DNA from: Streptomyces sp. SID486
GTDB taxonomy: Bacteria > Actinomycetota > Actinomycetes > Streptomycetales > Streptomycetaceae
Assembly (NCBI RefSeq): GCF_009865385.1
Contig: NZ_WWJT01000702.1
Location: forward strand, 1 to 64,000
Length of the DNA: 64,000 bases
Direction: 5' to 3'
Numbering within the stretch: position 1 is the first letter of the stretch; each line of letters starts with the position of its first letter. This document shows, piece by piece, positions 52,411 through 64,000 of this stretch. Below the pieces are notes generated by a model. That model had not been told where the DNA came from. It searched no databases and saw nothing but the letters and a program-made list of their open reading frames with translations. The position numbers and the translations under genes were made by a program.

Positions 52411-54264
52411 TCAGTCGTCCGTCGCGTCGCCGAAGTCGGGACGCACGCCACGGGCGGCCATGATGTCGTCGTTGGAAGTGCCGGCCGGGACCATCGGCCA
52501 CACCATCGCGTCCTCGTGGACGATGAAGTCCACCACCACCGGACGGTCGGTGACCGAGTTGGCCTTGTCGATGACCGCGTCCAGCTCGTCCGGGGACTCG
52601 CAGCGCAGGCCCACGCAGCCCATCGCCTCCGCGAGGAGGACGAAGTCCGGGACGCGCGTGCCCCGGTTGGCCGCGGAGCCCACGCCCCGGGTGGAGCCGG
52701 TGGCGGCGTTGGTGGCGCCGTCGTGCAGCACGGTGTTGGAGAACCGCGCGCCGTAGAAGAGGTTCTGCCACTGGCGGACCATGCCGAGGGCGCCGTTGTT
52801 GATGACGGCGACCTTGATCGGGAGGTCGTTCAGGGCGCAGGTGACCAGTTCCTGGTTGGTCATCTGGAAGCAGCCGTCGCCGTCGATCGCCCACACCGTG
52901 CGGTCGGGCCGGCCGGCCCTGGCCCCCATCGCGGCCGGGACCGCGTAGCCCATCGTCCCGGCGCCGCCGGAGTTGAACCAGGTGCCAGGCTCGTCGTGCG
53001 GGAGGAACTGCGCCGCCCACATCTGGTGCTGGCCGACACCGGAGGCGAACAGGGTCCCCTCGGGGGCGAGCCGGCCGATGCGCTCGATGACCAGCTGCGG
53101 GGAGAGCGTGCCGTCGGCGGGCAGGTCGTAGCCGCGGGGGTAGGTGTCCCGCCAGCGGTTCAGGTCCCGCCACCAGGCGGCGTGGTCCCCGGGGCCGCCC
53201 TCCTCCCGCACCGCGGCCGCCAGGGCGGCGATCACCTCGCGGGCGTCGCCGACGATCGGCACGTCCGCGTACCGGTTCTTGGAGATCTCCGCCGGGTCGA
53301 TGTCGGCGTGCACGACCTTGGCGTGCGGTGCGAAGCTGTCCAGCCTGCCGGTGACCCGGTCGTCGAAGCGGGCACCGAGGGCGACGATCAGGTCCGCCTT
53401 CTGCAGGGCCGCCACGGCGGACACGTCACCGTGCATGCCGGGCATGCCCATGTGCTGCGGATGGCTGCCGGGGAAGGCGCCGAGGGCCATCAGCGTGGTG
53501 ACCACGGGTACGCCGGTCAGTTCGGCGAGGTCCCGCAGCTCGGCGGTGGCCCCGGCCTTGAGGACGCCGCCGCCGACGTACAGGACCGGACGTTCGCTGG
53601 AGGTGATCAGCCGTGCCGCCTCGCGGATCTGCCGCGGGTGCGGGCGGGTCTTCGGGCGGTAGCCGCGCAGATGCGCCGCCGTGGGCCGGACGAAGGTGGT
53701 CCGGGCCTGGAGGGCGTCCTTGGTGATGTCGACGAGGACCGGCCCGGGGCGGCCGGTCGACGCCAGGTGGAACGCCTCGGCGATGGTCCGCGGGATGTCC
53801 TCGGCCCGGGTGACGAGGAAGTTGTGCTTGGTGATCGGCATGGTGATGCCGACGATGTCCGCCTCCTGGAAGGCGTCCGTGCCGATCGCCTTCGACGACA
53901 CCTGGCCCGTGATCGCCACCAGCGGTACGGAGTCCATGTGGGCGTCGGCGATCGGTGTCACCAGGTTCGTGGCACCCGGCCCGGAGGTCGCGATGCAGAC
54001 ACCGACCTTCCCGGTGGCCTGCGCGTACCCGGTGGCGGCGTGGCCGGCGCCCTGCTCGTGCCGCACCAGCACGTGGCGGATCCGCGCCGAGTCCATCATC
54101 GGGTCGTAGGCCGGGAGGATCGATCCGCCGGGGATCCCGAAGACGGTGTCCGCGCCGGCCTCCTCCAGGGCGCGGATCAGGGACTGGGCGCCGGTGATGG
54201 TCTCGTCGGCGGGGAGCATCCGTGGCAGGCGGGCCGCGGGGGCCTCTTGCACAGTGTGGGGCAT
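52411..54264 (-). CDS. ilvB: Acetolactate synthase large subunit
   Basis: A 617-aa ThDP-dependent acetohydroxyacid synthase catalytic subunit. Visible are the N-terminal [18 protein letters not shown] with the catalytic Glu in [23 protein letters not shown]-domain segments, and the ThDP site [34 protein letters not shown] (GDG...NN, residues about 455-490). ATG 54264. It heads ilvBNC, but unusually its upstream neighbour, 63 nt away on the same strand, is a phosphopantetheinyl transferase of a peptide cluster. I see no attenuator hairpin in that gap, so part of its transcription may come from the cluster. Confidence 0.96.
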
Positions 54265-54327: not shown

Positions 54328-55116
54328 TCAGATCGGGGCCCCTCCCGTCAGGAGCCCGGGCGGGGCCGCGCGGACCAGGTCGGCGGCCTGCGGGCCGACG
54401 AGGCGGGTCACGGTGGGTCCGGCGGCGGTGAGTTCGCCGCGCACCGCCACCGCCGCCGCGTAGCCCCGGTCCACCGGGACGTCCAGCAGGGTCCAGCCGG
54501 ACGGCGGGTAGGGGCCTCCGGGTGCGCCGGAGCCGACGTAGTCGAGGGACGGGTCGCGTCCCAATCCGGTGCCGAGGCCCTTGAGGTAGGCCTCCTTGCG
54601 GGTCCACAGCCTGGCCAGTGCGCGCGGGCGCGACTCCGGTGCCAGTGCGTCGAGTTCCTCCTGCTCCGCCACGTGCAGCATCGAGGCCAGTTCGGTGGTG
54701 GCCGTCTGGTCCGACACCAGGTCCACGTCGACGCCGATCGGCGCCGCCGCCGTACCGACGAGGGCGAGGTCGCCCCGGTGGGAGAGCGAGAAGAACAGGT
54801 CGTCGCGGCCCGGGCCGAGCACGGTGGGCCGGCCGTGCGGGCCGCCGCAGCAGGGGCAGGTGTCCCGGCCGAAGTGGATCTCCTCGGGGCGCAGCCGCAG
54901 ATACGACCCGAGGAGCCGGCGCAGTGCCACGTGCGCGGCCGTGAACCGGGTGCGGTCGGCCGCGTGCATGAGGGCGGCGGCGCGTCGGCGTTCCGTCGCG
55001 TCGAGCACCGCCTCGTCCAGGATGCCGGCGGCGACATCCGAGACCCTCAGGAGCCAGAGGTCGAGTGAGCCGGGAGGTGGCAGCTCACGGGCGACCCACG
55101 GCAGTGTTCCTTCCAC
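54328..55116 (-). CDS. Sfp-type 4'-phosphopantetheinyl transferase
   Basis: A 262-aa Sfp/Svp-like transferase that converts apo carrier domains of the NRPS to holo form using CoA. The Mg-binding motif is VGTAAAPIGVDVDLV and the second conserved motif is RLWTRKEAYLKGLGTG; the N-terminal half includes GRDTCPCCGGPHGRP and DLFFSLSHRGDLALV. GTG 55116 has AGGAG 8 nt upstream. It lies 40 nt downstream of the MFS gene and 63 nt before ilvB. Its presence supports the cluster being an autonomous peptide pathway. Confidence 0.93.
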   Translation of the reverse strand: MEGTLPWVARELPPPGSLDLWLLRVSDVAAGILDEAVLDATERRRAAALMHAADRTRFTAAHVALRRLLGSYLRLRPEEIHFGRDTCPCCGGPHGRPTVLGPGRDDLFFSLSHRGDLALVGTAAAPIGVDVDLVSDQTATTELASMLHVAEQEELDALAPESRPRALARLWTRKEAYLKGLGTGLGRDPSLDYVGSGAPGGPYPPSGWTLLDVPVDRGYAAAVAVRGELTAAGPTVTRLVGPQAADLVRAAPPGLLTGGAPI

Positions 55117-55156
55117 GGGGTCTCTCCTGTTCGTACTCGAAGGAGCCGACCGGGCG

Positions 55157-56443
55157 TCATGACCCTCCGGGCGCGGCGGGCAGGTCGTGCCTGCCGCGCA
55201 GGGGCCCGATCAGCAGCAACAGGGGGCTGACCGCGAGTCCGGCGGTCAGCAGCCACAACGTCGGCCGCAGTCCGAGCGCCGTGCCGAGCACGCCGCCGAG
55301 CAGGGAACCGAACGGAATGGCGCCGAAGTTCGCCACCGAGATGCAGGCCGTGATGCGGCCGAGCAGCTGCGGCGGGCAGTACCGCTGGCGGAACGCGCCC
55401 TGGATCACATTGGCGAGCACCACCCCGAGGGCGAGGAGCGCGCTGCCGGCCACGAGCGCGGCCAGCATCCAGCCCTGCCCCGCCATCGGGATCAGCAGGG
55501 CGAACGGGGCGGTGGCCGCGGTGGCCACCAGCAGCCCGCGTGCGGTGCCCCAGCGGGCGGTCACCCGCTTGGCGCCGGCCGCGCCCAGGATCCCGCCGAC
55601 GCTGCTGGAGGCCAGCAGCCAGCCGGCCGCGCCCTCCGGCACGCCGAGCTGGCGGATCATGAACACGGGCAGGATCGCCTGGTACGCCGTCAGGAGCAGG
55701 TTGGTGACGGTGCCGTAGGCGGTCAGCACACGCAGGTACGGGTCGCGCACGGTGTGCCGGAGACCCTCGCCGATGTCCCGGCGCAGCGGGGTCCGCTCGC
55801 GGGAGGGCTCGGGCAGGGGTTCCCGGCTGCGGATGCCGAGCAGGCACAGCGCCGAGAAGACGAAGGTGCCGGCGTTGACCAGCAGGCCGGAGACCGCGCC
55901 GAAGGTCTGGGCGAGCAGACCGCCGCCGCCCAGGCCGGCCACCTGGGCGACCGACTCGCTGCCCTGCAGCTTGGCGTTGGCCTCCTGGAGCTGGTCCCGC
56001 TCGACGATGGACGGCACGTACACCTTGTACGAGATCCCGAAGAACACCGCGGCCAGGCCGTTGAGGAGCGCCACCACCAGCAGATGGGTCATGGTGAGCA
56101 CGCCGAGCCACGCGGCCACCGGCACGCTCGCCAGGAGCAGCACCGAGGAGACGTTGCACACCAGCATCAGCGGGCGGCGCCGCATCCGGTCCACCCAGGC
56201 GCCGGCCGGCAGGCCGATCAGCAGCCAGGGCAGCCAGGGCGCGGCGGCCAGCACACTCACGCTGAGGGTGCTGGCGTTCAGGGTGACCACGGCGACCAGC
56301 GGCATCGCCACCGTGGTGATGTTGATGCCGACCCGGTTGGTGGTCTCACCGAGCCACAGCCGGCGGAAGTCGCGGTGGCGGGAGAGGGGGGTGCGGGCCG
56401 GGGCGGGCACCGGTGCGGCGGCGGTGGTGACGGTCTCGCTCAT
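55157..56443 (-). CDS. MFS exporter (EntS/DHA3-like)
   Basis: A 428-aa 12-TM major facilitator of the MFS_3 (EntS, macrolide-efflux) type. It begins SRHRDFRRLWLGETTNRVG and has LLIGLPAGAWVDRMRRRPLML as the motif A loop, then QLQEANAKLQGSESVAQVAGLG and repeated Ala/Leu helices. It is the likely exporter of the cluster product and may provide self-resistance. ATG 56443 overlaps the stop of the lyase gene by 4 nt (ATGA), so it is translationally coupled. Confidence 0.92.
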   Translation of the reverse strand: MSETVTTAAAPVPAPARTPLSRHRDFRRLWLGETTNRVGINITTVAMPLVAVVTLNASTLSVSVLAAAPWLPWLLIGLPAGAWVDRMRRRPLMLVCNVSSVLLLASVPVAAWLGVLTMTHLLVVALLNGLAAVFFGISYKVYVPSIVERDQLQEANAKLQGSESVAQVAGLGGGGLLAQTFGAVSGLLVNAGTFVFSALCLLGIRSREPLPEPSRERTPLRRDIGEGLRHTVRDPYLRVLTAYGTVTNLLLTAYQAILPVFMIRQLGVPEGAAGWLLASSSVGGILGAAGAKRVTARWGTARGLLVATAATAPFALLIPMAGQGWMLAALVAGSALLALGVVLANVIQGAFRQRYCPPQLLGRITACISVANFGAIPFGSLLGGVLGTALGLRPTLWLLTAGLAVSPLLLLIGPLRGRHDLPAAPGGS

Positions 56444-57903
56444 GCCCGCACCGCCCTGTCCACCTTGTCCACGGCATCGGTCAGCAGCTTCTCGGCGTCC
56501 GACCAGCGATCGCGGCGGACGGCGCACTCGGCGCGGTGGGCGTCGAGCAGGCGGCGCAGCGGCGGGAGTCCGTCGGCCCCCGGGCCGCCCCCGTGGACGC
56601 ACGCGGCGACCACGTGGTCCGGGTCCAGGCCGCCGTCGAGGCCCGCGGTCTCCTCCAGCGACAGGCCCGAGCCGAGCGCGGCCAGCACGGTCTCGCCGAC
56701 CTTGTGGTGCGCGGCGCGGAACGGCATGCCGTCCGCGACCAGGCGTTCGGCGAGGTACGTCGCCGCGGTGAACCCGTCCCGGGCCCGCTCGGACATGCGC
56801 TCGGGCCGCGGTTCGATGCCGGCCACGAGCAGCCGCAGCAGCGTCACCGCGTCGGTCGTGTCGCTCAGCCCCGGCCACAGGTGGCGCATGGCCTCGGTGC
56901 CGACGGCGATGGCGTTGGTGTAGCCGGCCGTGGTCATCGCCGAGGCCGCGCTCACGAAGGCGCCCAGACTCGCGCCGGCCCGGCCCTGGACGTGCTCCAG
57001 CAGGAACGGGTTGCGCTTCTGCGGCATCATCGAGCTGGAGCCGACCAGCGTGTCGGCGACCCGCAGCAGCGCCGTCTCCTCCGACGTCCACACGCTCAGG
57101 TCGCGGGCGACCCGGGCGAGGGTGACGCCGAGCACGGCGGACGCGGAGAGCAGGCTCAGCGCGAAGTCCCGGGAGGCCACGGCGTCCACGGAGTTGGTGG
57201 CCGCCCCGGTGAACCCCAGGAGCCTGGCGGTGCGTTCGGGATCGACGGGCACCGAGGTGCCGCCGACGGCCCCGGCGCCCAGCGGGTTGACGTCCAGCTG
57301 GCGTCCCGCGTCCAGGAGCTGGCCGTAGGCGCGCAGCACCGCGCCCGCGACGCCGGCCAGGTAGTGGCCGTAGGTGATCGGCACGGCGGGCTGCCCGTGG
57401 GTGTACGCCGGCATGGTGACGTGCGCGTACCGCTCGGCCCGGTCGAGGAGCACGGCGGCCAGCCGGTCCACGGCGTCCAGCAGGGCGAGGTAGGGGCCGC
57501 GGGCCTTGAGCCGGGCGGTGGTGGCGCCCAGGTCGTTGCGGGAGCGGCCGGTGTGCAGGACACCGCCGGTCTCGTCGCCCAGCCGCTCGATCAGCCAGCC
57601 CTCGTACGCCAGGTACACCCCGCGTGGCATCGGGCGCCCGCGCACCGGCCGGAAGTCGGCGGCGCGCAGCTCCTCCACCGCCCGCAGCAGCGCGGCGGCG
57701 CGGCCGGCGTCCACGACGCCGCGCTCGGTGAGCATGACCAGGTGGGCGCGGTCCACCTGGCTGATGCGGCGCAGCTCGGCGCCCAGCGGGTCCGCCGCGT
57801 CCTCGGACACGCGCTGGTCGTAGACGATGGCGTGCGCCTCGGGATCCAGCGCCGAGCTGAGCCGGCCGGTGTGGACGCCGTCGCGCGCGGGAGCGGTGGT
57901 CAT
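56440..57903 (-). CDS. Argininosuccinate-lyase-like enzyme of the peptide cluster
   Basis: A 487-aa fumarase/aspartase superfamily lyase. Features of the argininosuccinate lyase branch are HTGRSRNDLGATTARL, MPAYTHGQPAVPITYGHYLAG, NPLGAGAVGGTSVPVDPERTA and the mobile signature loop VGSSSMMPQKRNPF. It is unlikely to be the arginine-pathway ArgH, because it sits between cluster genes and lacks arginine genes nearby. I infer that it eliminates fumarate from an N-succinyl intermediate to release 2,3-diaminobutyrate. ATG 57903 has GAGG 7 nt upstream and overlaps the stop of the 40-aa gene (ATGA). The 3' end overlaps the MFS gene. Confidence 0.9.
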   Translation of the reverse strand: MTTAPARDGVHTGRLSSALDPEAHAIVYDQRVSEDAADPLGAELRRISQVDRAHLVMLTERGVVDAGRAAALLRAVEELRAADFRPVRGRPMPRGVYLAYEGWLIERLGDETGGVLHTGRSRNDLGATTARLKARGPYLALLDAVDRLAAVLLDRAERYAHVTMPAYTHGQPAVPITYGHYLAGVAGAVLRAYGQLLDAGRQLDVNPLGAGAVGGTSVPVDPERTARLLGFTGAATNSVDAVASRDFALSLLSASAVLGVTLARVARDLSVWTSEETALLRVADTLVGSSSMMPQKRNPFLLEHVQGRAGASLGAFVSAASAMTTAGYTNAIAVGTEAMRHLWPGLSDTTDAVTLLRLLVAGIEPRPERMSERARDGFTAATYLAERLVADGMPFRAAHHKVGETVLAALGSGLSLEETAGLDGGLDPDHVVAACVHGGGPGADGLPPLRRLLDAHRAECAVRRDRWSDAEKLLTDAVDKVDRAVRA

Positions 57904-58022
57904 GAGAGGTCCTCGGGGGTGAGAAGCGGCCGGTGTCCCCGGCGCCCGGAGGGGCGCGGGGTGGGGGTGCCGGGGTGGCGCCGGGCGGCTGCCCGGCCCT
58001 CGTGCGTCTCGGTGGCGCTCAT
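57900..58022 (-). CDS. 40-aa Arg/Pro-rich peptide gene embedded in the cluster operon
   Basis: A very short gene whose start overlaps the ATP-grasp stop by 4 nt (ATGA) and whose stop overlaps the lyase start by 4 nt (ATGA), exactly filling the gap between them. AGGAGG lies 7 nt before ATG 58022, the best ribosome site in the operon. The peptide reads MSATETHEGRAAARRHPG, then a Thr/Pro/Arg stretch, ending RPLLTPEDLS. It has no signal peptide, TM or cysteine. It could be a substrate peptide for the neighbouring ATP-grasp ligase, a small partner protein, or merely a coupling cistron. No family was recognised. Confidence 0.65.
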   Translation of the reverse strand: MSATETHEGRAAARRHPGTPTPRPSGRRGHRPLLTPEDLS

Positions 58023-59278
58023 GTCAGGGCCTCCTGCCGGTCCAGGGCCAGGGACGTCGGGGTGATCGCCCCCGCGAGGGCCTCCACCGCCCGGTCCGCG
58101 GCCCCGGCCGCCTCGGCGGGATGGTCCGCCACCGCGATGACATGGCCGAGCCGGCCGCGGAAGTCGGCGGCGGGGCCGACCGGTTCGCCCGGGGCGCGGT
58201 AGAGGACCGCCTCGACGACGCCGGGGACGGCACCGGCCCGGGTGACGGCGTCCGCGAGTCCGGGGGCCAGGATGCCGTCGCGGTCGGTGGTCAGGAAGCG
58301 GATCGAGGCGCGGCCGTACAGCGCGCGCTCCGGGTGCGCGGTACGCCCCAGGGCGGCCAGCACCTGGGCGCGGACCAGGTCGATCCCGCAGGCGCGGCGC
58401 ACGAGTTCGGGGATCATGCCGCCGGCCAGCCGCGGGTTGACCTCGATCACCTTGGCGGCCGGGCCGTCGAGCCGCAGCTCCACGTGGGCCGCGCCCCAGC
58501 CGAGGCCGAGCGCCGTCACGGCCCGCACGGCGGTGCGCCGCAGCTCGCGCTCCAGGCCGGCGGGGAGCGCCGCCGGCACGTCGTGGCCGACCTCGACGAA
58601 GGCGGGCAGCGGGCCGACGTGCTTGGCGACGGTCACCACCGCCTCGGTGCCGAAGACCTCGACGGAGAACTCCGCGCCTGTCAGGTACTCCTCGACCAGG
58701 ATCCGGCCGGGGGTCGCCACACCGCGTTCGTTCGTGGTGGTGGCCAGCAGTGCCCGCGCGTGCTCGGCGACCTCGTCGAGGTCCGAGCACAGCCGTACGC
58801 CCAGACTGCCCGAGCCCTGCACCGGCTTGACCACGACGGGCAGCCGGGTGGCCGCCGCCGACACCGCGGCGGCCTCGGTCGACACCACCGCGAAGCCCGG
58901 TACGCCCACCCCGGCGGCGGCGAGGATCCGCCGCTGCTCGGCCTTGTCCCGGCAGTCCCGCACCGCGTTTGCCGCGGGACCGGGCAGGCCCAGGCGGGAC
59001 GCCAGCGCGGCGGCGGCCGGGACGTAGTACTCGGAGCTGGTCAGTACTCCGGCGACCGGCGTCTCGTCGGCGAGCCGGGTGGCCGCCGCCCACAGCCGGT
59101 CCGCGTCGGAGGTGTCGACCACGACGGTCCGCAGCCCGTCCTCGGCCGCGTAGGGGTAGCGTCCCGGGTCCTGGCACAACAGGACCGGCACGACACCGAG
59201 TTCGGCGGCCCGGCGGGCGAACAGCCGCCCGGTACCGGTGGTGTTGGACTCGACCAGGAGCAGCAGCCGGCCGCTCAT
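58019..59278 (-). CDS. ATP-grasp ligase (amino-acid/peptide ligase type)
   Basis: A 419-aa ATP-grasp enzyme of the carboxylate-amine ligase group (BacD/L-amino acid ligase, biotin-carboxylase-like). The N-terminal Rossmann-like domain opens RLLLLVESNTTGTGRLFARRA; ATP-binding segments are LPVVVKPVQGSGSLGVRLC and RILVEEYLTGAEFSVEVFG; the metal loop is AAHVELRLDGPAAKVIEVNPRLAGG. It activates a carboxylate as acyl phosphate and joins an amine, presumably forming an amide in the product or an intermediate. ATG 59278 overlaps the PLP enzyme stop by 4 nt. Substrates are not deducible. Confidence 0.9.
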   Translation of the reverse strand: MSGRLLLLVESNTTGTGRLFARRAAELGVVPVLLCQDPGRYPYAAEDGLRTVVVDTSDADRLWAAATRLADETPVAGVLTSSEYYVPAAAALASRLGLPGPAANAVRDCRDKAEQRRILAAAGVGVPGFAVVSTEAAAVSAAATRLPVVVKPVQGSGSLGVRLCSDLDEVAEHARALLATTTNERGVATPGRILVEEYLTGAEFSVEVFGTEAVVTVAKHVGPLPAFVEVGHDVPAALPAGLERELRRTAVRAVTALGLGWGAAHVELRLDGPAAKVIEVNPRLAGGMIPELVRRACGIDLVRAQVLAALGRTAHPERALYGRASIRFLTTDRDGILAPGLADAVTRAGAVPGVVEAVLYRAPGEPVGPAADFRGRLGHVIAVADHPAEAAGAADRAVEALAGAITPTSLALDRQEALT

Positions 59279-60324
59279 GACGCGATCTCCGGCATCATCA
59301 CGTCGTCGAAGCCGCGGCGCCCCCACAGCAGCCGGGACCAGACCGGCGGGGCGTCCAGGGGGTGGCCGACGGTGACGGGTTCGCCGCCGGGCGCGGGCGC
59401 GGGGACGATGCCCTGCTCACGCAGCCAGGCGTCGTTGTAGACGGTCGACTGGTAGCGGTAGCCCTCGTCGGGCAGCACCATCACGACGGTGCTGGCGGGG
59501 TTGCGGGCCGCCCACCAGGACGCCACCTGGAAGGACGCGCCGCTGGTCGGGCCCATGAACAGCCCGTGCCTGCGGTACAGCTCGTGGGTGGCGTGGAAGG
59601 CCTCGGGCGCGGTCACCCAGTGGGCCTCGTCGTACGCCGCGTGCCGCACGTTGCCCGGGTGGATGCTGCTGCCCAGGCCGCGCAGGGTGCGCGGGCCGTC
59701 CGGGGTGCCGAAGATGATGCTGCCGTGGGTGTCGACGCCGACGAGGTGCAGCTGCGGATTGCGGGGCCGCAGTGCGGCGGCGAGACCGCCCGTGGAGCCG
59801 CCCGAGCCGACCGGCCCCACCACGCAGTCGACGGCGCCGACGGTGCCGTCGATCAGGTCGGCGACGACACCGTAGGCCCCCGGGTTGTCGGGGTTGTCGT
59901 ACTGGCCGGGGACGAACGCGTCCGGGTGCTGCCGGCACAGTTCGGCCACCCGGGCCAGCCGGGCGCCCTGGATGCCGCCGGGCTGGCCGGTGTGCTCGAC
60001 GATCTCCACCGTCGTGCCGAGCATCTCCAGCCGGGTGCGCAGTTCCTGGTCGATGGCGGAGTCGCCGACGATGGTCAGCGGGTAGCCGCGCAGCCCGCAC
60101 ACCATGGCCAGGCCCAGTGCGAAGGTGCCGGAGGAGGTCTCGATGACCGGGGTGCCCGGGGTGAGCACCCCGGCGGCCTCGGCCCGGTCGATGATGAAGC
60201 GGGCGGGCAGCAGCTTCATCAGGCTGAAGGCGGCCGCGTACAGGTTGTCGGCCACCTTGATGATCCGTGGCAGCTCGGTGGCCTCCACGATCGAGGAGTG
60301 CGCCTTGGGAAGGGTCGTCGTCAT
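59275..60324 (-). CDS. Cysteine-synthase-like PLP enzyme (beta/gamma-replacement)
   Basis: A 349-aa fold-type II PLP enzyme. ETSSGTFALGLAMVCG corresponds to the substrate-binding TSGNTG loop and VGPVGSGGSTGGLAAAL to the phosphate-binding Gly-rich loop; the Schiff-base lysine is probably in FSLMKLLPARF, an unusual context compared with the normal GSxKDR. GPTSGASFQVA lies near the end. It would replace the phosphate of O-phosphothreonine with an amino donor on the way to 2,3-diaminobutyrate, comparable to SbnA-type 2,3-diaminopropionate synthesis. ATG 60324 is one base after the kinase stop; GTG 60333 is an alternative. Confidence 0.88.
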   Translation of the reverse strand: MTTTLPKAHSSIVEATELPRIIKVADNLYAAAFSLMKLLPARFIIDRAEAAGVLTPGTPVIETSSGTFALGLAMVCGLRGYPLTIVGDSAIDQELRTRLEMLGTTVEIVEHTGQPGGIQGARLARVAELCRQHPDAFVPGQYDNPDNPGAYGVVADLIDGTVGAVDCVVGPVGSGGSTGGLAAALRPRNPQLHLVGVDTHGSIIFGTPDGPRTLRGLGSSIHPGNVRHAAYDEAHWVTAPEAFHATHELYRRHGLFMGPTSGASFQVASWWAARNPASTVVMVLPDEGYRYQSTVYNDAWLREQGIVPAPAPGGEPVTVGHPLDAPPVWSRLLWGRRGFDDVMMPEIAS

Positions 60325-60325
60325 G

Positions 60326-61243
60326 TCAGTCACCCGTTGTGTAGTTCCACTGCTCGTCGATACCGGTGCTCCGCAGGAGGTCCTGCGCCAGTGCGGTGCG
60401 CGTCTCGACGTCGGGATCGTCCCGGTCGAAGAGGAGCCCCGCGATGTCCCCGCTGTGGGCCACCTGCACGCCCACGGCGCCCGAGGTGCCCGCGATGTCC
60501 CGGATCCGGTCGAAGCCGGGGACCGGCAGGTGCCGCTGGTTGATCTCCGCGCTCGCCGTGGCCACCGAGCCGAGCAGCGCGACGTCCTTCATGTGGATGG
60601 CGTCCCGCAGCGTGTCCCGCAGTGCGGCGAACCGCTCGATCTCGGCCTCGTCGTAGCGGGCCGGCGGGAGGGCCAGCGTGTCGACGCCCTTGCCGCGGTT
60701 GGAGGGGCGCGAGCCGAAGCCCAGGACGCGCAGGGGTGGCATCCGGTAGCCGAAGTCCTCGATGACGGTGCCCTCGCGCTGCGCGAACAGCACGGTGGAG
60801 TCCTCGAACATCAGCGAGTCGGAGGCGGTCTCGGCGCGCACCGCGAGCCGGGCCACCTCGCGCGGCGGCAGCGGATCGGCGAACGCGTCCTTCACCGCCC
60901 AGATGGCCGACAGCACATCGCTGGTGGAGGAGCCGAAGCCCCGGCACAGCGGCACGTCCCCGGTCAGCTCCAGATGGCCGCCGACCGGTCCGGCGCCCGC
61001 CGGGACCACCGTCCGCACGGCCAGCTCGGCCGCCCGCCGCGCCTTGCCCTTCCAGTCCGGTGACACGGTGACCCCGGTGCCGGGTGCCGGCGTGAAGGTC
61101 GCCCGGGTGGTGTGAATGGTGCAGGGCAGCGTCACGAGTCCGCGCACGAGCCCGCCGGGGCCGGCGAAGACACCTTGCAGAATCTCGCCGTGATGGACGG
61201 GGGCCGAAGCTGCCCCGACACGCCAGTCGGAATGATCCACCAT
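60326..61243 (-). CDS. GHMP-family kinase (L-threonine kinase/PduX-like)
   Basis: A 305-aa GHMP kinase. The start SAPVHHGEILQGVFAGPGG is typical of the PduX-like threonine kinase group, the ATP loop is LCRGFGSSTSDVLSAIWAV (GHMP Gly-Ser-rich motif), and the C-terminus has SGAVGVQVAHSGDIAGLLFD. I infer phosphorylation of L-threonine to O-phospho-L-threonine as the activating step before PLP-dependent substitution. ATG 61243 is the first gene of the tightly linked set, downstream of two hairpins that separate it from the NRPS gene. A promoter in 61244-61370 is likely, but none was pinpointed. Confidence 0.88.
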   Translation of the reverse strand: MVDHSDWRVGAASAPVHHGEILQGVFAGPGGLVRGLVTLPCTIHTTRATFTPAPGTGVTVSPDWKGKARRAAELAVRTVVPAGAGPVGGHLELTGDVPLCRGFGSSTSDVLSAIWAVKDAFADPLPPREVARLAVRAETASDSLMFEDSTVLFAQREGTVIEDFGYRMPPLRVLGFGSRPSNRGKGVDTLALPPARYDEAEIERFAALRDTLRDAIHMKDVALLGSVATASAEINQRHLPVPGFDRIRDIAGTSGAVGVQVAHSGDIAGLLFDRDDPDVETRTALAQDLLRSTGIDEQWNYTTGD

Positions 61244-61372
61244 GTCCTTGACCTTCTGTTGCCGGTGAAGCCGTGACCTGCGGACACCCTTACGCTACGG
61301 AGGCCGGAACCCGCCTTCCGGCGGCAAGGGCGGCAGCTTGTGGGCGGTTGGCGGCGAGCCGCGGTCCGCACT

Positions 61373-61394
61373 CCGGGCGCACGAAAGCGCCCGG
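61373..61394. terminator. Hairpin between the NRPS gene and the kinase gene (distal)
   Basis: A perfect 8-bp stem (CCGGGCGC 61373-61380, GCGCCCGG 61387-61394) with a 6-nt loop lies about 140 nt after the NRPS stop on the minus strand. Confidence 0.6.
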
Positions 61395-61466
61395 CCCCGC
61401 CGAGACGGCAGGACCGGGCGTTCACCGGACAGGCGGGACGGGCGCGCCCCCGGGGGCGCGGGGGCC

Positions 61467-61514
61467 GCGCGACCGGCCGCGACGGGCCGGCGGAAGACCG
61501 ACGGCCGGTCGCGC
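61467..61514. terminator. Hairpin after the NRPS gene (proximal)
   Basis: 13-bp perfect arms (61467-61479 GCGCGACCGGCCG and 61502-61514) flank a 22-nt loop, 17 nt after the NRPS stop. It has no T run. With the distal hairpin it should insulate the NRPS transcript from the kinase operon. Confidence 0.65.
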
Positions 61515-61531
61515 CCCTCCCCTCGGCTCCC

Positions 61532-64000
61532 TCAGCTACGCACCCCCCGCAGCTGCTCGCCCAGCACCTTGCCGATCTCCCGCAGCGGCTCGGCGCCGGT
61601 CAGCTCCCAGTGTTCGCAGTCGATGTCGTGCTCCTCGACGTGGCCGGAAACGTAGGGTGCCCAGGACTCGGCGCCGGTGGCCGCGGCCGGCGTACGCCGG
61701 GCGTTGAAGAACACCACGTCGCCGCCGAAGCGCAGTTCGGGCACGTACCGGTAGCGCATGTGCAGATGCGCGGCCGTGGCCTCGACGACCGCGGCGGCCT
61801 GCACCGGGTCCAGGGCGCCCAGGATCGGGTCCGCACGCCGCAGCACGTCGGCGAGTTCGGCGGGGTCGGGCGCCGAGTCGGCGCACCGGACGTCGAGTTC
61901 GGCGCCGCGGGTGCCGAGGAAGGCGGTGAGGACCTCGCGTCCGTCGACGGCCGGGGCGGTGAAGCCGTCGGGCAGCGGATAGGCGTCCAGCAGTCCGAGC
62001 AGGGCCACCTCCTCGCCGAGCGCCTCCAGGCGGGCGGCGATCGCGTGCGCCACGAGTCCGCCGAAGGACCAGCCGAGCAGGTGGTACGGCCCGTGCGGCT
62101 GGACGGAGCGGATCTCGGCCACGTAGGTGTCGGCCATCTCCGCCATGGTCGCCGGCCGCAGCGCCGGGTCGGTCAGCTCCCGGGCCTGCAGGCCGATCAG
62201 CGGCCGGTCGAGGTGCTTGAGGAGTCCGGCGTAGCACCAGCTCATCCCGGAGACCGGATGGACGCAGAACAGCGGCGGCTCGTCCGACGCCGAGGCGGCC
62301 CGGATCGGCAGCAGCGTCTCCAGCGGGTCCCCGCCCGCGTTCTCGGCGATGTGCTCGGCGAGCAGGGCGGGCGTCGGGTGCTGGAACAGGTCCCGGATGG
62401 TCACCGGGGTGTCCCAGACCGCGCGGATCCGCCCGATGAGCCGGGTGGCGAGCAGGGAGTGCCCGCCGAGGTGGAAGAAGTGGTCGTCGATGGTGACCGA
62501 GGGGACGCCGAGCACGGCCGTGTACAGGCCGCACAGGATCTCCTCGGCCGGGGTGCGCGGTGCCCGCCCGCCGGTGGTCGCGGTCCGCGGCGGTTCCGGC
62601 AGTGCGCGCCGGTCCAGCTTGCCGTTCACGGTGAGCGGCAGGGCGTCGAGGGTGACCAGGGCGGCGGGCACCATGTACTCGGGCAGCGCGCCGGCCGCGT
62701 GCCGGCGCAGCTCGGCCGGGTCCAGCGGGTCCGCCTCGGCGTCGGCGGCCACCACGTAGGCCACCAGCCGCTTGTCGCCCGGCCGGTCCTCGCGGATCAG
62801 CACCGCGGCCTGCGCGACCGAGGGGTGCCGCAGCAGCGCCGACTCGATCTCACCGGGCTCGATACGGAAACCGCGCAGCTTGATCTGCTGGTCGGCCCGT
62901 CCCAGGTACTCCAGCGCGCCGTCCTGGCTCCAGCGGGCCAGGTCGCCGGTGCGGTACATCCGGGAGCCGGGCGCCCCGTGCGGGTCGGCCACGAACCGTT
63001 CGGCGCTCAGGCCCGGCTGGCCGATGTAGCCGTGGGCCAGGCCGTGCCCCGCGACGTACAGCTCCCCGGGCACGCCCGGCGGCAGCAGCCGCAGGTCCCC
63101 GTCGAGGACGTAGGCGTGCTTGCCGGTGAGGGGCCGGCCGATGGGGATGGCGGGGGCGGGCGCGGTGATGGTGTGGGCGGTGGTGAAGCCCATGCTCTCC
63201 GCCGGGCCGTAGCCGTTGACCAGGTGCAGGTGGGGGTGGTCGGCCAGGGCCTTGGCGGTGTGCGCGGGCGAGGCCGCCTCGCCGGCCGTCATCGCCTCCC
63301 GCACCTGGGAGAAGACCGCCGGGTGCTCGTCGAGCATGTGGTTGAACAGGCTCGCCGACATCTGCAGCGTGGTGATCCGGTGCTGCTCCACCAGCTCCGC
63401 GATGCGGTGCGGGTCGGTGTGCTGGCCGGGTTGCAGCACGCACACCCCGCCGTGCAGCAAGGGCCCGAACACCTCCAGCGCGAACGCGTCCCACGACACC
63501 GGGCTGCTCTGCAGATAGGTCTGCTCGGGACCGAAGTTGAGGTAGTCCGGTCCGATGAAGGTGGCCGCCAGCGCCCGGTGCGAGGCCGCGACTCCCTTGG
63601 GCACCCCGGTCGAACCCGAGGTGAACATGACGCACGCGGTGGCCTCCGGGTGCCCGCCGGTCTCCACGGCCGTGCCCGGCAGGGCGCTGACCGCCGGCGC
63701 GTCCTCGGTCAGGTCGATCAGCGGCGCCGCGGTGGGCAGCGCCACCAGGTGGCTCTGGGTGACCAGGGCGGACGGCCGGGTCTGGGCCAGCACGGTGGTG
63801 AGCCGGTCGGCCGGGAACTGCGGGTCCAGCACGGTGTACCCGGCGCCGGCCTTCAGCACCGCGAGGATGGTGGCGATCAGGTGCGGGGAGCGTTCCAGGT
63901 GCAGGGCGACCAGGCTGCCCGGGACGACGCCGCGCGCGGTCAGGTGCCGGGCCAGCCGGTTGGACCACACGTCCAGTTCGGCGTAGGTCAGCCGCTGCTC
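61532..64000 (-). CDS. Nonribosomal peptide synthetase, terminal A-T-TE module (5' end outside the window)
   Basis: The frame is open to the window edge ([17 protein letters not shown] is the A1 region). An adenylation domain fills about 1-500: A3 [13 protein letters not shown]5 [10 protein letters not shown]7 [11 protein letters not shown]8 region [19 protein letters not shown] and A10 [14 protein letters not shown] thiolation domain follows ([16 protein letters not shown], phosphopantetheinyl Ser) and then a type I thioesterase (about 560-820) with [10 protein letters not shown] as nucleophile elbow. My reading of the specificity residues is D-A-L-Q-M-A-G-G-F-K, which I cannot assign. As the last module it would load the final residue, perhaps 2,3-diaminobutyrate, and release or cyclise the peptide. 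Confidence 0.93.

Follow-up and report, generated by a model that had tools for sequence, protein, structure and literature searches.

What does a group of four enzymes build at the end of a nonribosomal peptide synthetase (NRPS) gene cluster in Streptomyces sp. SID486, and does its ATP-grasp ligase belong to that pathway or stand beside it? The stretch of DNA analysed here, the window, comprises positions 1 to 64,000 of contig NZ_WWJT01000702.1 (assembly GCF_009865385.1), part of a 64,964-base contig (C681) in an 8.5-Mb draft genome of 809 contigs. Near its right-hand end are genes for a GHMP-family kinase, a pyridoxal phosphate (PLP) enzyme resembling SbnA and cysteine synthase, an ATP-grasp ligase and an argininosuccinate-lyase-like enzyme, alongside the last module of an NRPS. 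An earlier note on this DNA had taken the kinase, the PLP enzyme and the lyase-like enzyme as a complete 2,3-diaminobutyrate pathway of the DabA-C kind, to which the ATP-grasp ligase had been added; its observation is partly confirmed here and its interpretation partly supported. Comparative sequence analysis indicates that the four genes are probably one cassette for a 2,3-diamino acid. The explanation that best accounts for the whole, and to which we would give an even chance, is that this cassette works with a carbamoyltransferase and with enzymes for a second unusual residue in the synthesis of a lipid-free nonribosomal peptide. What the sequences show directly is which genes are present, how far they are conserved, which share a frame, where active sites have changed and what the A-domain codes are; all substrates, the position of the ATP-grasp step in the route and the product are predictions.

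All genes between 54328 and 64000 are on the minus strand, and none in the cassette region contains an internal stop. The kinase gene (60326..61243; PF00288, E 1.2e-10, with conserved motifs) is predicted to encode a threonine, or serine, kinase. It is followed by the gene of the PLP enzyme (59275..60333; PF00291, E 1.9e-40), which is predicted to replace a phosphate in the beta position by the amine of an amino acid. The ATP-grasp ligase (58019..59278; PF13535 and PF18603, best Pfam E 6.4e-20) is of the PRK02186 type and carries LAL_C2, an L-amino-acid-ligase C-terminus, and the argininosuccinate-lyase-like enzyme (56440..57903; PF00206, E 3.2e-43) is predicted to release fumarate from an N-succinyl adduct. 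By their Pfam E-values, the family assignments of the four enzymes are not due to chance. The kinase and PLP genes overlap by 8 bp, the PLP and ATP-grasp genes by 4 bp, and the lyase gene and the transporter gene that follows it by 4 bp. Between the ATP-grasp and lyase genes is a gap of 115 bp, filled by an open reading frame of 40 codons (57900..58022) that is ATGA-coupled at both ends, to the ATP-grasp stop and the lyase start. It may only couple translation, and the frame is likewise open in S. filipinensis and S. musisoli (L022 and L023). The translational linkage that had been proposed thus holds for the operon, through the overlaps and the coupled frame, with the ATP-grasp and lyase genes themselves lying apart. 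The three genes that had been called consecutive are all present by Pfam and are not consecutive, as the ATP-grasp gene lies between the PLP and lyase genes.

Genome contigs were scanned with the window ATP-grasp ligase and the best 80 of 137 relatives were kept; a partner was counted if it lay within 6 kb on the same strand and scored at least 45 bits in comparison with the window proteins. A survey seeded in this way is blind to gene sets that have no ATP-grasp. Kinase, PLP enzyme, ATP-grasp and lyase were all found in 68 of these 80 loci; one partner was absent in six and two in another six, some of which are short contigs. The PLP enzyme and the ATP-grasp share a single open frame in 40 of the 80 loci and the ATP-grasp and the lyase in one, and Pfam confirmed a fusion of the first kind in L084 and of the second in L024. 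The NCBIfam model PRK02186 (890 positions) also covers both enzymes, the ATP-grasp matching positions 5-407 (340.9 bits) and the lyase positions 408-887 (408.4 bits), each score being below the whole-model cut-off. In Azospirillum and Sulfuriferula the cassette is plasmid-borne, and the stretch shown has no annotated NRPS gene. Because of this co-occurrence, the shared frames and the retention where no NRPS is annotated, we regard the ATP-grasp as an integral member of the cassette rather than an added function. Could the kinase, PLP enzyme and lyase alone nevertheless make 2,3-diaminobutyrate as in the lipopeptide clusters, the ATP-grasp being a separate tailoring ligase? The three families and the lyase motifs fit this alternative and the chemistry requires no ATP-grasp, but the pattern just described, allowing for the seeding of the survey, makes it improbable.

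The enzymes DabA-C of the friulimicin cluster are a kinase, a cysteine-synthase-like enzyme and a lyase-like enzyme, as here. Friulimicin is a lipid-initiated product of 11 residues. Compared with friulimicin, the window family differs in having five or six modules that start with adenylation and thiolation (A-T) domains and in its integral ATP-grasp. Two 20-kb loci (L110 and L111) have kinase and PLP matches with no ATP-grasp or lyase matches; the first two enzymes apparently serve a different purpose there. The window genome also holds parts of another cassette: contig C568 (L122) carries an ATP-grasp, the A-domain code DIWQSTADD and a GHMP kinase, and C558:11959-13344 encodes a second cassette-type lyase. 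The PRK02186 search of 392 genomes was dominated by housekeeping lyases and was used only for this second lyase.

Catalytic residues were compared in alignments of 84 lyases, 93 PLP enzymes, 87 kinases and 91 ATP-grasps, the window copies included, at the positions expected to be catalytic in these families. The expected residues are kept in 99-100% of the aligned copies of all four enzymes: the RSRND, TH and GxSxxMPQK motifs in the lyase, the PLP lysine K40 in the PLP enzyme (100% of copies), the GE..QG, SS, D109 and HSG motifs in the kinase, and K151, E279 and N281 in the ATP-grasp. The conserved lyase residues include those that hold the succinyl or fumarate part of the substrate in this superfamily, and therefore support an N-succinyl substrate. 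The kinase matches consist of the GHMP superfamily and, weakly, homoserine and mevalonate kinases (27.7 bits against a cut-off of 168.25 for the homoserine kinase model); no PduX model or structure is among them. The best named hidden Markov model (HMM) for the PLP enzyme is SbnA, at 225.7 bits and under the cut-off of 349.95, so that the amine donor is not readable from this match. Aspartate is inferred from the lyase as the donor, with aspergillomarasmine synthesis as a precedent, in which a PLP enzyme of the same family is described as coupling phosphoserine with aspartate (PMC12751119).

On these grounds, the kinase would phosphorylate the side-chain hydroxyl of threonine, the PLP enzyme would exchange the phosphate for the amine of aspartate, and the lyase would expel fumarate to leave 2,3-diaminobutyrate. 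The ATP-grasp would carry out an ATP-dependent ligation, which gene order and the two kinds of fusion place, at about even odds, on the adduct ahead of the lyase. The earlier logic of threonine, phosphothreonine, amine adduct and diaminobutyrate fits the enzyme families, the catalytic motifs and the company of the cassette; its three-enzyme form is incomplete. The SbnA/SbnB system, to which the SbnA-like PLP enzyme gives the cassette a likeness, proceeds differently: SbnA is described as using glutamate, and SbnB as oxidising the adduct (PMC12751119). The cluster on the annotated plasmid pSITFR-16a, a complete relative of the one in the window, has a lyase and an ATP-grasp and no such oxidoreductase annotated. 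A SbnA/SbnB route was rejected, as the SbnA cut-off is missed and no SbnB-like gene is annotated in pSITFR-16a, the genomes themselves not having been searched for SbnB.

Which diamino acid would be made? On contig 73 of S. wedmorensis (L084), genes for the lyase, the kinase and a fused PLP-ATP-grasp protein are followed within about 2.3 kb by genes for an aldolase-type PLP enzyme (PF01212) and a hydroxylase of the Biopterin_H family, a layout like that of the uridyl-peptide genes of pacidamycin type. The window cassette resembles the uridyl-peptide systems of pacidamycin and mureidomycin type in that lyase, GHMP kinase, PLP enzyme and ATP-grasp occur together in L084. It differs in that L084 has the PLP-ATP-grasp fusion and then the aldolase-type enzyme and Biopterin_H, neither of which is annotated in the pSITFR-16a cluster. 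Biopterin_H was found in 8 of the 41 genomes searched, and only the S. wedmorensis copy is placed beside the cassette. The uridyl peptides are described as containing N-methyl-2,3-diaminobutyrate (PMC10714638), and in S. roseosporus the loss of a gene proposed for its synthesis is reported to have abolished the mureidomycin peaks and activity (PMC4572928). Gausemycins are also described as containing 2,3-diaminobutyrate (PMC12471526), and KasC of kasichelin has been called ATP-grasp-like, its role being unproven (PMC12305651).

In many other cassette loci the code of an A domain (DIWQxT(A/C)DD, DIWEINADD or DDxQxSTID) gives it an acidic pocket for the side chain. Such diamino-type codes are present in 30 of the 45 loci that do not belong to the window clade and in 0 of the 27 that do, a post hoc pattern set after the codes had been seen, which detracts from it; their presence near the cassette is moderate evidence for a 2,3-diamino acid. 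Taking codes and company together, a 2,3-diamino acid is a quite probable product of the cassette, threonine is mildly favoured over serine as its precursor, and (2S,3S)-2,3-diaminobutyrate would be the most likely compound. If serine were the precursor, the cassette would make 2,3-diaminopropionate instead. The PLP enzyme has as its best named HMM that of SbnA, an enzyme of diaminopropionate synthesis, which speaks for serine and against the threonine pathway proposed here, and the ureido-forming transcarbamylases of viomycin and zwittermicin are described as using diaminopropionate (PMC4581275). The L084 cassette, however, adjoins uridyl-peptide-like genes, a diaminobutyrate-containing class by an assignment that is itself indirect, and we consider serine somewhat unlikely.

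The same codes bear on another reading of the ATP-grasp and the lyase, in which the two would amidate a carboxylate with the nitrogen of aspartate to yield an amide and no diamino acid. PurC and PurB act in this manner in purine synthesis, ligation of aspartate being followed by release of fumarate, and the ATP-grasp and lyase are joined in PRK02186 and in one locus. This would leave the kinase and the PLP enzyme without a role, and many cassette loci outside the window clade have diamino-type A domains nearby; we hold it very improbable. In Brevibacillus porteri (L096) and B. fortis (L101), the cassette follows an NRPS with the code DVGEIGSID, an ornithine code that may point to the brevipentin rather than the edeine cluster. 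The cassette may explain why antiSMASH finds pacidamycin similarity in the brevipentin cluster, a similarity that has been ascribed to peripheral function units (PMC10753013).

The window clade comprises loci L022-L047 and re-fetched pieces, 28 members that form one clade in the ATP-grasp tree (local support 0.779). None of the 56 codes in 27 window-clade loci is diamino-like, a result weakened by the fact that most of these loci reveal no more than the final one or two modules; six A domains are visible only in NBC_00572 and ITFR-16, and five in S. griseofuscus. The count left out gapped codes, codes with X, and loci L001-L004 and L006-L008, which belong to further NRPSs in the genome of the window strain, and kept SLLLLVGLA and ASFLLGVAF, which are not amino-acid codes. 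In addition, the loci are not independent: L104 equals L042, L125 equals L144 and L056 equals L107, and the window strain is present as L009, L119, L120 and L121. A split module in Amycolatopsis, DDIQ...ISQID (L048/L173), looks diamino-like and was scored absent, which works against the contrast between clades. The codes of NBC_00572 are DSYYWGAVF, DSYYWGAVF, DAYFWGVTF, DAYWWGGTF, DALQMAGGF and DALQMAGGF; those of ITFR-16 are similar, with DAYWWGGTF and DAFWWGGTF as the middle pair. The window strain has DSYYWGVVF on C165, DAYWWGGTF on C476 and C770, and DALQMAGGF in the window. The codes DAYFWGVTF(K) and DAYWWGGTF(K) are described as specifying valine in friulimicin- and laspartomycin-type synthetases (PMC9113097). 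As the window-clade codes lack the diamino type, free 2,3-diaminobutyrate is probably not loaded.

In what form, then, might the cassette product enter the peptide? NBC_00572 has in its cluster a carbamoyltransferase whose best family is ornithine carbamoyltransferase (OTC), at 216.8 bits against an equivalog cut-off of 280.85. In OTC, N167, D231, S235 and M236 are described as binding ornithine (PMC4581275). The comparison covered 13 window-clade genomes plus pSITFR-16a, and in all 14 distinct cluster copies DxxxSMG has become SxxxTMG, so that the equivalents of D231 and S235 are changed, and HCLP has become HDLP. Ser replaces at least one Asn of the NN pair in 14 of 14 copies; the placement of gaps decides whether the residue concerned is N167. 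The motifs for carbamoyl phosphate, STRTRT and HPTQ, are conserved, as are M236 and the lysine that precedes STRT. Of the 23 genomes searched, 13 have a copy scoring 418 bits or higher; these are precisely the genomes that carry a window-clade cassette, and no match in the other 10 exceeds 275 bits. In Actinoplanes the carbamoyltransferase gene is directly after the cassette and the gene of the major facilitator superfamily (MFS) transporter, and a DSYYWGVVF module is on the other side.

Carbamoylation has been described for diaminopropionate in viomycin and zwittermicin and for 2,4-diaminobutyrate in padanamide (PMC4581275). The transcarbamylases of these pathways are likewise OTC-family enzymes of NRPS clusters with altered acceptor residues (PMC4581275); compared with them as described, the enzyme here differs in its predicted acceptor, 2,3-diaminobutyrate. 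Because of the altered acceptor site, the missing diamino codes and these precedents, we propose that the diamino acid would be converted to a neutral ureido acid before loading. The neofunctionalised OTC-like enzyme, whose gene lies at the opposite end of the cluster, would carbamoylate the side-chain amine, and the NRPS would load the resulting ureido amino acid, with the DSYYWG modules as the probable site. That the cassette product is carbamoylated has, in our estimate, slightly less than an even chance.

Might the enzyme instead be a resistant or back-up OTC that protects the producer or supplies arginine? Its best family is OTC, as this would require. The score is well under the cut-off, however, every cluster copy has lost the Cys of HCLP as well as the equivalents of the Asp and Ser that bind ornithine, and further carbamoyltransferase homologues (30-37% identity, not aligned) are present elsewhere in the window genome, all of which makes a back-up OTC unlikely. 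A second OTC-like group (L158, L168, L169 and L170) is 48-52% identical to the cluster type and has HDLP and an altered ornithine loop. Carbamoyltransferase matches of equal score lie at C254:12858-13778 and C462:37683-38603 in the window genome; given a contamination value of 6.42, some contigs of the assembly may be duplicates or of foreign origin.

Read from the contig end inward, the part of the cluster inside the window starts with the last NRPS module, A-T-TE, where TE is a thioesterase domain (61532..64000, minus strand; PF00501, PF13193, PF00550 and PF00975; A code DALQMAGGF). The NRPS runs past the window toward the end of C681 at 64964, with a partial condensation (C) domain match at C681:64112-64954, outside the window. 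Beyond the lyase gene are a predicted MFS exporter (55157..56443; PF07690/PF05977) and a phosphopantetheinyl transferase, or PPTase (54328..55116; PF01648). The rest of the cluster was found complete in relatives, namely NBC_00572 (G004), pSITFR-16a and S. griseofuscus; in the window strain its pieces are spread over other contigs, the upstream genes on C165 and the best-matching NRPS pieces on C476 and C770. In pSITFR-16a the order is regulators, the OTC-like carbamoyltransferase, an MbtH gene on the opposite strand, the cobalamin and E subunits of methylaspartate mutase, asparagine-synthetase-A-like and glutamate-synthase-like genes, NRPS1, NRPS2, kinase, PLP enzyme, ATP-grasp, lyase, MFS transporter and PPTase, giving a cluster size of roughly 32-37 kb. 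The window thus probably holds the terminal end of a cluster for a small nonribosomal peptide with no lipid start.

NRPS1 of NBC_00572 has three A, three T and two C domains, and NRPS2 has three C, three A and three T domains and a TE. This NRPS has neither a starter C domain nor any additional domain of the condensation family. Two complete relatives have six modules, and five were seen in the third, S. griseofuscus. The start of the window strain NRPS on C165 also begins with an A domain. The suggestion that the product is not simply a known lipopeptide is supported by the complete relatives, whose NRPS starts A-T, with five C to six A domains in NBC_00572. A lipopeptide assignment was rejected on the A-T start in NBC_00572 and on C165 and the missing starter C domain of lipid initiation. 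In the window, an acetolactate-synthase-like (ilvB) gene at 52411-54264 follows the PPTase gene, as in 10 close relatives (L022-L030 and L044), and the cluster may occupy a common chromosomal site in all of these genomes. No recognised description of the cluster or its product was found in the open-access literature searched, which says little about subscription journals.

The mutase, asparagine-synthetase-like and glutamate-synthase-like genes raise the question of a second unusual residue. Glutamate mutase, the asparagine-synthetase-A-like enzyme and an enzyme using flavin mononucleotide (FMN) would together provide a residue of 3-methylaspartate or asparagine type, probably for the DALQMAGGF modules. 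Of the 25 genomes to which L022-L046 belong, 23 have the asparagine-synthetase-like gene with a score of at least 580 bits, the exceptions being G172 (454 bits) and Actinoplanes G450. The Amycolatopsis cluster (L048, L173 and L174) has mutase, asparagine-synthetase-like and FMN genes together with MGG(F/Y)-type codes like DALQMAGGF, and as a single case fits the assignment of residue to A domain; its best carbamoyltransferase match is of 160 bits and on a different contig. The E subunit of methylaspartate mutase is encoded a second time in the window genome, at C463:22909-24153 (L118 and L123), on another contig and with 61% identity to the NBC_00572 copy.

Several further observations weigh against this overall account. 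The ATP-grasp is chemically superfluous in a simple threonine route, where the ATP-dependent step is a true gap, and the mureidomycin paper describes diaminobutyrate as formed from threonine and ammonia, not aspartate (PMC10714638). The brevipentins, as reported, have no diaminobutyrate in the structures described (PMC10753013), which matters if L096 and L101 are that cluster. In the window strain the carbamoyltransferase is on another contig, and its linkage is taken from the relatives. About 1.4-8 kb past the PPTase gene of pSITFR-16a, on the other strand, are genes for an AMP-binding protein and an acyl carrier protein, which could hint at a lipid; we take them as a neighbouring system because an acetolactate-synthase-like gene follows the PPTase gene in the window. 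The Actinoplanes genome G450 has no asparagine-synthetase-like gene at 1e-60 and has its glutamate mutase near the cassette locus on the other strand, a gene content that weakens the assignment of residue to A domain, as do L053 and L061, with MAGG-type codes and a mutase status outside the survey.

What would these predictions mean if they were correct? In its most specific form, our proposal is that 2-amino-3-ureidobutanoate would be incorporated through the DSYYWG modules and a new 3-methylaspartate-derived residue through the DALQMAGGF modules, that many Streptomyces would make peptides of the form X-X-Val-Val-Y-Y, and that an ATP-grasp step would be obligatory and so far unrecognised; taken together, this is doubtful. 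The cassette is known in kind, but the genes that accompany it in this cluster point to a new building block and to a small peptide not yet described. The orphan peptide family is widespread, and two of its residues are predicted to be non-standard. A scheme of 2,3-diaminobutyrate synthesis with three enzymes seems to omit an evolutionarily kept and often fused ATP-grasp. This ligase is kept with its partners in Actinomycetota, Bacillota and Pseudomonadota, and the mechanistic question that it poses is testable with four small proteins.

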